From Cohaesibacter sp. (lineage in GTDB: Bacteria > Pseudomonadota > Alphaproteobacteria > Rhizobiales > Cohaesibacteraceae), in the NCBI GenBank assembly GCA_025800145.1, contig JAOXSH010000130.1, forward strand, positions 21,807-85,806: DNA of 64,000 nt. Reading direction: 5' to 3'. Positions within the stretch are counted from its first letter, which is position 1. Each line of letters starts with the position of its first letter. Position numbers and translations under genes: made by a program. Below, in pieces: positions 13,633 to 50,252 of this stretch. The notes beneath the pieces were generated by a model. The model worked only from the letters and a program-made list of their open reading frames with translations, did no database searches and was not told where the DNA came from.

Positions 13633-14475
13633 ATGTCTGGCAAAGCTCGTTCCGGCTTGATTTTGAGCGCGGGCCTTGATTTGAAAGAAGCCATGCGCTC
13701 GCGCTGGTTTCATATCTATTCGCTGGTTTTTACCGGCCTCATGGTGTTGCTGATTTCCATGGGCATTACCGAATCGCGTGTGCTGGGCTTTACCGGTTTG
13801 TCGCGTCTTTTGGTCACTTTCATTCAGCTGACCATGGCCATTTTGCCGCTTTTTGTCTTGGTGACCACGGTTCGCTCGTTGGTGGGCGACAGGGAAGCTG
13901 GCACGCTGGAATATTTGCTCTCGTTCCCGATCAAACTCTCTGACTGGTATTGGGGCAAATTGCTGGGCCGTTTGTTTGTGGTGGTGGTGCCCATTGGCAT
14001 TGCACTGGTCATTGCAGCCTCCTTCAGCCTGATCAAAGGCCATGCCCTGCCCTATCTGGAAATTGCCTATTATAGTGGGCTTGTGGTCTCGCTGGCGCTC
14101 TGTTTTCTTGGCTTTGCCTTCTTCCTGTCTTCCATTGCCAAAAGCACGGAATTTGCTCTTGGGCTTTCTTTGCTGATTTGGCTGTTGCTGGTAGCCTTTC
14201 TGGATTTGATTTTGATCGGGGTTTTGATCCGGGAAAATTTTGATCCTAATTTTGTTCTGGCCATTGCACTGGCCAATCCATTGCAGACCTTTCGAACGGC
14301 GGCCATGATCCTGTTTGACCCGCAATTGGTGTTGCTGGGGCCTGCCGCTTTCCTGATTTTGGATAATTTTGGCTCACAAGGCTATGTCTTTTGGGCCCTA
14401 GCCTATCCCTCTGGCCTTGGGCTTGTCTTTGCTGCGCTTGGTTTTTGGCGTATGCGATCAGGAGATCTGGTTTAG
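13633..14475 (+). CDS. nosY: NosY ABC transporter permease
   Basis: Multi-TM ABC-2 permease, GDREAGTLEYLLSFPI motif, next to nosF/nosL. Confidence 0.9.
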   Translation: MSGKARSGLILSAGLDLKEAMRSRWFHIYSLVFTGLMVLLISMGITESRVLGFTGLSRLLVTFIQLTMAILPLFVLVTTVRSLVGDREAGTLEYLLSFPIKLSDWYWGKLLGRLFVVVVPIGIALVIAASFSLIKGHALPYLEIAYYSGLVVSLALCFLGFAFFLSSIAKSTEFALGLSLLIWLLLVAFLDLILIGVLIRENFDPNFVLAIALANPLQTFRTAAMILFDPQLVLLGPAAFLILDNFGSQGYVFWALAYPSGLGLVFAALGFWRMRSGDLV

Positions 14476-21663: not shown

Positions 21664-23865
21664 TTATCGCTTGGCTGCAAAAGCCTTTGCCTGCCGCACA
21701 ACATTCTCAATCATGATCATCCCCGCATTGCTGCCTAAAGACATGATGGATTCTGGGTGAAATTGCACAGCGCTTATTGGCTCGCTAACATGTTCCAGCG
21801 CCATAACCACGCCGTCTTTGGTGGTTGCTGTGACCCGAAGCTCGTCTGGCAAAGACTCTCTATTGGCAAAGAGCGAATGATAGCGCCCCACGACAATCTC
21901 GCCCTGTAAGCCTTCGAAAATGCCCTTGGTTTGCACGGTGATGCGCGATGGCTTGCCATGCATGGGAATATCGAGCTGATCCAACGTGCCACCAAAGGCT
22001 TCTGTTATGGCTTGCAAGCCAAGACAGACCCCAAAGATGGGCAATTGTCTTGCCCGCGCTTTGGCGATTGTTTGGCTGGTGCCGAAATGTTGCGGATTTC
22101 CGGGACCCGGAGACATGACCACCAAATCAGGCGCCACTTTATCGAAGAGATCATCGGCAACTGGGGTGCGCACCGTGACGACTTCTGCGCCTGTCTGGCG
22201 GAAATAATTGGCCAAAGTATGCACAAAACTGTCCTGATGATCCACCAGCAGAATTTTTAGCCCTTCACCGGGCTGTTTTGCCTCACTTGCGCTATCATCC
22301 TGTTCAGACTGGGCCGCTTCACGGATTGCGGCACGCATTGCTGATGCCTTCAATTCGGTTTCTGCCTCTTCATCTTCGGGACAGGAATCATAGAGCAAAG
22401 TGGCCCCTGCACGGACCTGTGCCACGCCATCCTTGATGCGGATGGTACGCAAGGTCAGACCCGTATTCATATTGCCATCAAAGCCAATCATGCCGATTGC
22501 CCCGCCATACCATGCACGCGGCGATTTTTCGTGGCGCTCGATAAAATCCATGGCCCAAAGTTTGGGCGCGCCGGTCACGGTTACGGCCCATGCATGAGAG
22601 AGGAAGGCGTCCAGAGCATCCAGCCCCTCGCGCAATCGACCCTCAATATGATCCACCGTATGAATGAGGCGGGAATAAAGCTCAATCTGACGCCGCCCTT
22701 TGACCCGCACAGAACCCGGCACACAGACCCGGCTCTTATCATTGCGGTCAACATCGGAGCACATGGTCAATTCGCTTTCATCCTTTTTGGAATTGAGCAG
22801 TTTTAAAATCTGCTCGCTGTCTTCGATAGGATCTTTGCCACGCTTAATTGTACCGGAAATAGGACAGGTCTCGACCAATGTGCCATCACTGACCTTGACA
22901 AACATTTCAGGACTGGCGCCTACCAGATATTCCTGTTCGCCAAGATTTATCATGAAGCCATAGGGCGATGGATTGATTTTTTGCAAACGTCTGGAAATGG
23001 CAGAGGGATTGCACTCCACTCTTTCATAAAAGGTCTGACCCGGAACGCACTCAAACAGATCGCCGCGCTTGAAATAATCGACCGCTTTTCGGGCCACTTG
23101 CGCATATTCGCCCTTTTCATGGTCACCACGCGGCAAGTTGACATGTGATGACTGGAACGGATCGGACGTGCTTTGGCGCTCAATATCTTCTGTGGTGTTG
23201 CCCTCATAGGCAAAATCATAGCGGTAGCGATGGGCTTTTTGCGCATAGAGATCGACGATCAGCAAGTCATCTGGCAAATAAAGCACCAGATCGCGCTGAT
23301 CTTGCGGGCGCTGCAATTGCATCTCAATGGGGTCAAACTGGAAGGCCAGATCATAACCAAAGGCACCATACAGGCCCAATTGCGTATCCTGCCCGGACTT
23401 GAATAGGCCAATCAGCGCGCGCACGATGGAGAAAACCGACGGCATACGGCTGCGCTCTTCTTCTGAGAAGCTTCCTTCTGGTTCCTTGACGCTCAGCTCG
23501 ATTTTTGTCTCATCTGCTGTGTAGGATTTCAGCTCTGAGAGATCTTTCAGCGTTTTGTGAATGGCGGGAATGAGAATAACACCGCGATCATTCAAAGCTT
23601 CGATGGTCATGTCGCGTCCGCGGGCGGTGATTGCCAGAGGGGGATCGACAAAACCAAGCTCCCAGCGGCTATAGCGGCCCGGATATTCATAATTGGATGA
23701 CAGGACAACCCCGCGTCTTTCATCCAATTGGGAGAGAATGGTATCAAGAGCGGTTGCAAAATCATCCTTGCCGACCTGACGGATGACTTCAATGCCGCCC
23801 TCGGTCAGATAGAGACCATCTTCGATATAATCTATGGACGCTGTGTCTTCGTGATGAATGGTCAT
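21664..23865 (-). CDS. trpE(G): Fused anthranilate synthase TrpE-TrpG
   Basis: Chorismate-binding domain ([36 protein letters not shown]) fused to glutamine amidotransferase ([24 protein letters not shown]). Confidence 0.95.
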
Positions 23866-23966: not shown

Positions 23967-23992
23967 ACAAAAGCCGCCGGAAAACCGACGGC
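23967..23992 (-). terminator. Predicted trp attenuator terminator
   Basis: Minus strand GCCGTCGG TTTT CCGGCGGC TTTTGT between the leader ORF and trpE(G). Confidence 0.8.
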
Positions 23993-24045
23993 CAGATCCC
24001 AATGTCTTGTTTTGCCTTGATTGCATGGCAAAGGGTCAGCCGCCG

Positions 24046-24093
24046 TTATTGCGTCTGCCACCACCACCAATTTTGTGCAATCAAATCTCTCAT
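24046..24093 (-). CDS. trpL: trp leader peptide MRDLIAQNWWWWQTQ
   Basis: Minus-strand ATG AGA GAT TTG ATT GCA CAA AAT TGG TGG TGG TGG CAG ACG CAA TAA, upstream of trpE(G) and an attenuator hairpin. Confidence 0.88.
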   Translation of the reverse strand: MRDLIAQNWWWWQTQ

Positions 24094-24132
24094 GTCTTTG
24101 GGTTTAGCCGATTTTATAAGAGGCGACAATGA

Positions 24133-24185: not shown

Positions 24186-26330
24186 TTAAGCAGAGGCTAC
24201 ATTTTTCAGGAAAGCATCAACCTCGTTGCGCAAACGGTCAGTCTGCTGCGCAGCATTGGAGGAGCTTTGTTGGACCTGCTCAACCGATTGCGTGGTTTGA
24301 GAGACAGATTCCTGCAAGCCGGACATATTGCCTGCCACTTGCTGTGTGCCGCTTGCTGCCTGAGTTACATTTTGCGAGATTTCAAAGGTTGCGGCCCCTT
24401 GCTCATCCACAGCAATGGAAATGGAATTGGTGTATTCATTCACCTTTTCCATCGTACTGGCAATCCCGGCAATGGCATCAACCGCCTCATTGGTGGCGCC
24501 CTGAATTTCGGTAATCTGGGACGAAATTTCCTCTGTTGCCTTGGAGGTCTGGTTTGCCAGTTCCTTCACTTCAGAGGCCACAACGGCAAAGCCTTTGCCA
24601 TGCTCTCCGGCGCGGGCGGCCTCAATGGTGGCATTGAGGGCCAACAGATTGGTTTGCTCTGCAATATCCTGAATGAGAGAGACCACATCGCCAATTTTTT
24701 GAGCCGAATTGGACAGACCTGAGACCTTTTCATTGGTATGGCGTGTAGCTTCTGTTGCGCGATTGACAACATTGGCGGTTTCATCCACCTGCCGTTTGAT
24801 CTCTTCAATGGAGGATGCCAATTCTTCTGCGGCAGAGGCGACGGTTTGCACATTTCCAGATGCAACTTCTGATGCAGAAGCGGACGAGGTTGCCTTATCG
24901 GCTGTGTCTGCCGCCATGCCAAACAGCCCCTGTGCGGTCTGCTGCATGGTGCTCATATTCTGCGTCACATCATTGAGCAATTCATCCGATGATGAACGAA
25001 AACCATCAATCATGCTCTCGATTGCCCGTTGCCGTTTGGTACGCGATTCCTGCTCGTCACGGGCCTGCTCTTCCAGACGGCGGCGCTCAATCGCATTGTT
25101 GCGCAGCACTTCCACCGCACGGGACAGCTCTCCAATCTCGTCTTTCTTTTTGGAATTTGGCAATTGCACATTCAGATCATCTTTTGCAAGGCGCGTCACG
25201 CCGTCATTGAGGAGTTTGAGCGGAGCCATGGCAGAGCGGACAAACCAGGTTGCCAATCCGCCAATGAGCAACAGCATGGCTGCGCCAATGGCAAGCAGAC
25301 CATTGCGCAAGGTTGCAGCCGGTGCCAGCAATTCCTCATAATCCTGACGCACAACAAGCGCCCATGTGGTGCCCAAGACCTGCATGGGAGAGGCTACTGT
25401 CAGATATTTATGACCATTGATTTGCAAGTCAGTGCTGGAGGCTTTGCCGGTCAAAGCATTCAAGGCAATTTCATTTTCTGCGGTTGCCAAATCTTTGACG
25501 GTTTTTTTCGAGAAGGAAATGGCTTTCAAGCTGGCATTGACCAATTCGATATGGCCTGTTTTGCCCAGCCCGGTTTCATCTTCGAGAATTGTCGCCAATT
25601 CCTTTGTATTCACTTCAAAGGCAATGGCTCCGTCAATACGGCCCCATTTCAGAATTGGAGTAACCATATAAGCTGTGATATCGCCATGGGCCTGAATGAA
25701 CCCAGTAAAGCCGTTGCCTTTATAGACCGTATTGGGCTTTTCGTTTGCCAGCTTCAGAATGGGCTGGATTTGCGCATTCAATTCTTCATGAATGACCTTG
25801 GCCTGATTGATATTCTTGGCAAAGGCATCACCTTTTCGGTAGGAATAATAGACATTGCCCTTTTTATCGAAGAAAAGCACATCGCGAAACATGCCACCTT
25901 GCAGTAATTTTGTTATGCGTGGCTGATGTTTTTTATGAGCCGCTGAATAATAAACGCCTTTTATATCGGCATCGACAAATTCATGGCGCGTTTGCTCTGG
26001 ATTGGGGTTGTTCGTGACATACACATCTATTAGTTTGGAAGAGGCTTCTTCTTTCAGGACCTTCCAGCCACCATGAAACTGCTTTGCTGCGTCATCCACA
26101 ATCGTGTGGCTGGCAAGTGCACGCATATTCCCCTGAAGCTGTTCCAGATAGAGTGTGACTGTATTGGTTCGCCCTCTTGCAGCATTTTCCAAAGCCGTTT
26201 GCGTGAGTTGAACCGATGAATTCCCACCTATCCAGGATGCGACAGAGACGAGAAGTGCAACCAGAATTGTGACGGACAAAACCATAATCACAGGAAGCTT
26301 GGTCGCAAGGCGTGTTGGCAATATTGACAT
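24186..26330 (-). CDS. Methyl-accepting chemotaxis protein with Cache-type periplasmic domain
   Basis: Two TM segments, HAMP, signalling hairpin IAEQTNLLALNATIEAARAGEHGKGFAVVASEVKELA. Confidence 0.95.
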   Translation of the reverse strand: MSILPTRLATKLPVIMVLSVTILVALLVSVASWIGGNSSVQLTQTALENAARGRTNTVTLYLEQLQGNMRALASHTIVDDAAKQFHGGWKVLKEEASSKLIDVYVTNNPNPEQTRHEFVDADIKGVYYSAAHKKHQPRITKLLQGGMFRDVLFFDKKGNVYYSYRKGDAFAKNINQAKVIHEELNAQIQPILKLANEKPNTVYKGNGFTGFIQAHGDITAYMVTPILKWGRIDGAIAFEVNTKELATILEDETGLGKTGHIELVNASLKAISFSKKTVKDLATAENEIALNALTGKASSTDLQINGHKYLTVASPMQVLGTTWALVVRQDYEELLAPAATLRNGLLAIGAAMLLLIGGLATWFVRSAMAPLKLLNDGVTRLAKDDLNVQLPNSKKKDEIGELSRAVEVLRNNAIERRRLEEQARDEQESRTKRQRAIESMIDGFRSSSDELLNDVTQNMSTMQQTAQGLFGMAADTADKATSSASASEVASGNVQTVASAAEELASSIEEIKRQVDETANVVNRATEATRHTNEKVSGLSNSAQKIGDVVSLIQDIAEQTNLLALNATIEAARAGEHGKGFAVVASEVKELANQTSKATEEISSQITEIQGATNEAVDAIAGIASTMEKVNEYTNSISIAVDEQGAATFEISQNVTQAASGTQQVAGNMSGLQESVSQTTQSVEQVQQSSSNAAQQTDRLRNEVDAFLKNVASA

Positions 26331-50014: not shown

Positions 50015-50093
<79 letters not shown>

Positions 50094-50168: not shown

Positions 50169-50252
<84 letters not shown>

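Follow-up and report, generated by a model that had tools for sequence, protein, structure and literature searches.

The stretch of DNA analysed here (64,000 nucleotides in full, called the window below) is part of a genome of the Cohaesibacter group (Hyphomicrobiales), a 3.44 Mb draft in which the contig concerned measures 85.8 kb. On the minus strand, a short open reading frame, trpL, is flanked on one side by the terminator of a methyl-accepting chemotaxis protein (MCP) gene (hairpin around 24156-24134), and on the other by the ATG of trpE(G), at 23865. Read directly from the sequence, trpL (24093..24046) is ATG AGA GAT TTG ATT GCA CAA AAT TGG TGG TGG TGG CAG ACG CAA TAA, and encodes the peptide MRDLIAQNWWWWQTQ, 15 codons long before the TAA. 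It is placed 180 bases upstream of trpE(G), and the bases cccaaagac stand immediately 5′ of its ATG. An earlier note on this DNA had placed a four-Trp ORF at this very position, between the MCP terminator and trpE(G), and its description proved exact. The features of the locus are listed below.

24186..26330, minus strand: methyl-accepting chemotaxis protein gene, ending just 5′ of the trpL promoter and outside the system.
24124..24129, minus strand: putative −35 element TTGTCG, 36 bases 5′ of the ATG, at a conserved spacing.
24102..24107, minus strand: putative −10 element CTAAAC, 8 bases 5′ of the ATG, at a conserved spacing.
24046..24093, minus strand: trpL leader ORF MRDLIAQNWWWWQTQ, predicted to be leaderless (sequence, conservation, shuffles).
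24058..24069, minus strand: four consecutive Trp codons (TGG x4), the putative sensing site; a run of 2-4 Trp is found in 123/123 fused trpE(G) loci.
24051..24059, minus strand: region 1 core, GGCAGACGC, the 5′ arm of the 1:2 anti-antiterminator, starting in the last Trp codon.
24033..24045, minus strand: region 2, CGGCGGCUGACCC, directly 3′ of the stop codon, able to pair with region 1 or region 3.
23986..24000, minus strand: 3′ arm of the 2:3 antiterminator, GGGAUCUGGCCGUCG, which holds most of region 3.
23972..23993, minus strand: intrinsic terminator hairpin 3:4, GGCCGTCGG-TTTT-CCGGCGGCT, followed by TTTGTGT (−16.4 kcal/mol).
21664..23865, minus strand: trpE(G), fused anthranilate synthase of 733 aa, the regulated gene (TIGR01815, NF010081).

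The downstream gene scored well above the curated cut-offs: 1170.5 bits against TIGR01815 (cut-off 739) and 1174.1 bits against NF010081 (cut-off 645). A fused trpE(G) above cut-off was present in 22 of 41 relatives, and all 22 had a leader with a Trp run upstream. When relatives, named genomes and further genomes of the order were pooled, 123 fused trpE(G) loci were obtained (some genomes being counted twice via different collections, for example L009 and L034). Every one of them had a leader ORF with WW, and 111 had WWW or more. As a control, these regions were also read on the reverse strand, where WW was found in 1 case and WWW in none. For the 14 unfused trpE genes in the order, no upstream ORF containing WW or W.W was detected. 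At five further loci, where the arrangement of the synthase is a different and more distant one, three W-pair ORFs turned up, scattered and unlike the leaders. The fused loci are numbered L002-L134; the unfused trpE genes devoid of a Trp-run leader (L137-L150) include one from a genome of the same family, G018.

Most leaders have three Trp codons; four are found here, in the close relatives L006 and L007, and in the distant L008. In L002, a TGT precedes three TGGs, one change away from a fourth TGG. The same leader was recognised on a contig of Cohaesibacter haloalkalitolerans. Within the genus, the codons 3′ of the Trp run, CAG ACG CAA/CGA/CAT TAA, are near-invariant, which fits the expectation for an RNA arm, and the N-terminal half of the peptide is variable. 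Further away, the Ensifer leader L089 resembles the published S. meliloti peptide, and at the Agrobacterium loci L096 and L104 the encoded peptide is close to the one published for Agrobacterium. These comparisons provide a clean annotation for trpL, a gene that ORF callers miss.

A plain consensus scan revealed no sigma-70 site upstream of trpL, so that the case for a promoter rests on conservation. In 119 distinct upstream sequences aligned on the leader ATG, TTG[CT] begins 34-37 bases 5′ of the ATG in 100, and a TAA/TAT element lies 13-15 bases 5′ of it in 80; some of the misses are due to the script choosing a too-long start. A Shine-Dalgarno-like tetramer was seen in only 18 of the 119, and none precedes the trpL start codon in the window. 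The conserved spacing between promoter elements and ATG points to a transcription start on the first base of the trpL ATG or right next to it; the leaderless 5′ end suspected in the earlier note, which had seen no strong Shine-Dalgarno, thus gains support from sequence comparison. For the S. meliloti leader RNA, rnTrpL, the 5′ end is the ATG, and the RNA is translated (PMC7298713, PMC10117765). Two other in-frame starts, TTG 24129 and TTG 24084, are possible in principle, but it is the ATG that holds a fixed distance to the promoter-like element in the relatives.

The trpL stop codon is followed, after 52 bases, by an intrinsic terminator and its U tract. The sequence CGGCGGCU is present in both region 2 and region 4, and these two regions compete for region 3. 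In an alignment of 14 distinct family sequences, the 1:2 helix has 8 pairs and 99.1% of the cells are paired, and pairs are kept at 92.3% for the 2:3 helix and 100% for the third helix; covariation was also looked for among these 14 sequences, where the pairs are too invariant to add support beyond conservation. A fold-based finder detected a terminator together with an upstream competitor arm in 121 of the 123 loci (111 distinct leader sequences), the arm being in most cases no more than about 12 bases from the stop codon. A finder requiring strict stems missed bulged ones and recovered only 41. When the post-stop region was shuffled, a terminator and an antiterminator partner, both equally strong, arose together once in 400 shuffles. 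The fold of the whole leader is not unusually stable (z of −1.55).

The alternative terminator and antiterminator folds that had been proposed for this leader were both computed, and ribosome position switched between them. In the model used, the bases under the ribosome were blocked, and the probability of the 2:3 pairing was computed before region 4 is made. It reached 0.98 whichever of the four Trp codons occupied the ribosomal A site, fell to 0.73 one codon past the Trp run and to 0.00 at the stop codon, and was 0.24 without a ribosome. In the complete RNA, a ribosome placed at the stop codon gave the 3:4 terminator a probability of 0.98. A looser, automated ribosome model clearly separated the states in only 59 of 111 distinct leaders, and produced no clear reversal. 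At equilibrium, the terminator was favoured in every state of the full RNA; antitermination therefore depends on timing, as is common to all such attenuators.

The earlier note had likened the locus to the trpL-trpE(G) layout of rhizobia, and sequence comparison and folding agree on this point, with a fused trpE(G) downstream that scores well over the curated cut-off. We consider it nearly certain that trpL and a ribosome-mediated transcription attenuator control trpE(G). What computation shows is the ORF and its conservation, together with the promoter geometry and the two competing folds; where transcription starts, that the ORF is translated and that the system responds to tryptophan are what we infer from here on. 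RNA polymerase would initiate on the A of the start codon or next to it, and ribosomes would load onto the resulting leaderless message. A shortage of charged tRNA-Trp would make the ribosome stall on the four TGG codons and cover region 1, leaving the 2:3 antiterminator to pair, so that transcription would read into trpE(G). With ample tryptophan, the ribosome would instead move on to the stop codon and cover region 2, and the 3:4 terminator would then form, releasing a short attenuated transcript some 125-130 nt long. Each fused trpE(G) examined in the order comes with the leader, the alternative hairpins and the promoter geometry of a leaderless start, and the unfused trpE genes tested lack them. 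From sequence comparison, this suggests that the leaderless attenuator has long been part of fused trpE(G).

The E. coli trpL shares with that of Cohaesibacter the ribosome-mediated 1:2, 2:3, 3:4 switch and the use of Trp codons, but differs from it by an untranslated 5′ leader carrying a Shine-Dalgarno, only two Trp codons, the TrpR repressor, and a single trpEDCBA operon. A closer relative is the S. meliloti trpL-trpE(G) attenuator, reportedly described by Bae and Crawford in 1990 (its leader RNA is rnTrpL, or RcsR1, and its peptide peTrpL). Both systems have an ORF of 14-15 codons, leaderless in S. meliloti and predicted to be so in Cohaesibacter, in which the Trp run comes close to the stop codon, a terminator ahead of the fused trpE(G), and a separate trpDC operon. 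S. meliloti has three Trp codons, against four in Cohaesibacter, and beyond the Trp run its peptide shows little similarity to the Cohaesibacter one. The hairpin sequences of Cohaesibacter are also unlike those of Ensifer relatives, save for a GGC/GCC-rich core. In S. meliloti, trpL is leaderless and attenuation operates at trpE(G) only (PMC7298713, PMC10117765). The Agrobacterium and Bradyrhizobium peTrpL (MNIVSKNIANWWWSSFLRP and MSTAVAPARLWWRTS; PMC7298713) resemble the Cohaesibacter peptide in where they lie, in their length class and in having a Trp run ahead of the trp gene, and differ from it in sequence. We conclude that the Cohaesibacter trpL is a further member of the known rhizobial family of leaderless trpL-trpE(G) attenuators. 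Among the papers searched, none names both Cohaesibacter and a leader peptide.

Could this leader do more than attenuate in cis? In S. meliloti, the attenuated RNA lowers the level of trpDC mRNA, with which it base-pairs and which it destabilises (PMC7298713, PMC10117765, PMC7143759), and the peptide peTrpL regulates the mRNA of a multidrug efflux operon (PMC7298713). Homologous leader peptides are active in Agrobacterium and Bradyrhizobium (PMC7298713), and trans action is known only from these three groups. By analogy with these precedents, the Cohaesibacter leader may have a dual function, combining attenuation in cis with an rnTrpL-like RNA that lowers trpDC mRNA and a peptide that acts on other mRNAs; we regard this as possible but rather unlikely. 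The dispersed trp layout speaks for it: S. meliloti has three trp operons, and in the Cohaesibacter genome as well the trp genes are scattered, with trpD-trpC located elsewhere and followed by moaC- and moeA-like genes. Moreover, the conserved leaderless design would let the short RNA act as a small mRNA. On the other side, the best duplexes between leader RNA and trpD were no better than those formed with shuffled trpD: in 8 genomes, their energies fell within the shuffle range and the sites were not conserved. As this crude search ignored accessibility, its outcome weighs neither for nor against trans action. The variability of the N-terminal half of the peptide within the genus counts against a dual function. 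It is possible, but again rather unlikely, that the leader RNA, the WWWWQTQ peptide, or both, also regulate in trans in Cohaesibacter, a non-rhizobial genus. If they do, the dual function of trpL would characterise the fused-trpE(G) clade as a whole, reaching beyond plant-associated rhizobia and their near relatives.

Within the cis mechanism itself, a terminator does not by itself reveal what controls it, and this one might serve a Trp-binding riboswitch or protein, or be constitutive, rather than respond to ribosome stalling. This is very improbable. Region 2 follows the stop codon without a gap, and the last Trp codon is where region 1 begins, a placement that makes the geometry dependent on a translating ribosome. 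In addition, the leader falls below the gathering score of every known RNA family in Rfam; the best sub-threshold match, MicX, reached 27.7 bits against 75 required, and merely aligned two terminator hairpins.

Dinucleotide shuffles of the 320-base gap (20,000, one strand) never produced a WWWW ORF, and produced a WWW ORF in 0.03% of cases. The window as a whole was dinucleotide-shuffled 60 times; on its two strands, short ORFs then averaged 0.0 with WWWW and 0.15 with WWW. These tests exclude chance for the four-Trp ORF. Tiny ORFs devoid of a Shine-Dalgarno do commonly arise by chance, but a fortuitous Trp-rich ORF in a plain 5′ untranslated region, next to an unrelated terminator, is contradicted by the shuffles and the 123/123 conservation, as well as by the reverse-strand control and the coupled alternative hairpins, so that this extremely improbable reading is in practice refuted by the comparative sequence data.

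Only one other short WWW ORF exists in the window, at 13976..14032 on the plus strand, and shuffles can match it (0.15 expected per window). A second, split anthranilate synthase was suspected on contig C32 of G000 (L135:4228-7194). Two synthase subunits are followed there by a class IV aminotransferase-like gene, trpD is located elsewhere, and the cluster matches the anthranilate synthase model with a score under the cut-off. Judged by gene order, it is probably a folate cluster of the pabB-pabA-pabC type, and it was set aside. No Rfam family fits the leader, although over 120 loci share the conserved attenuator architecture, and a family model of the Rfam type could be built from these. Finally, the window contains tandem tRNA-Met(CAT) genes on the minus strand, at 50017-50093 and 50176-50252, with equal covariance-model scores.
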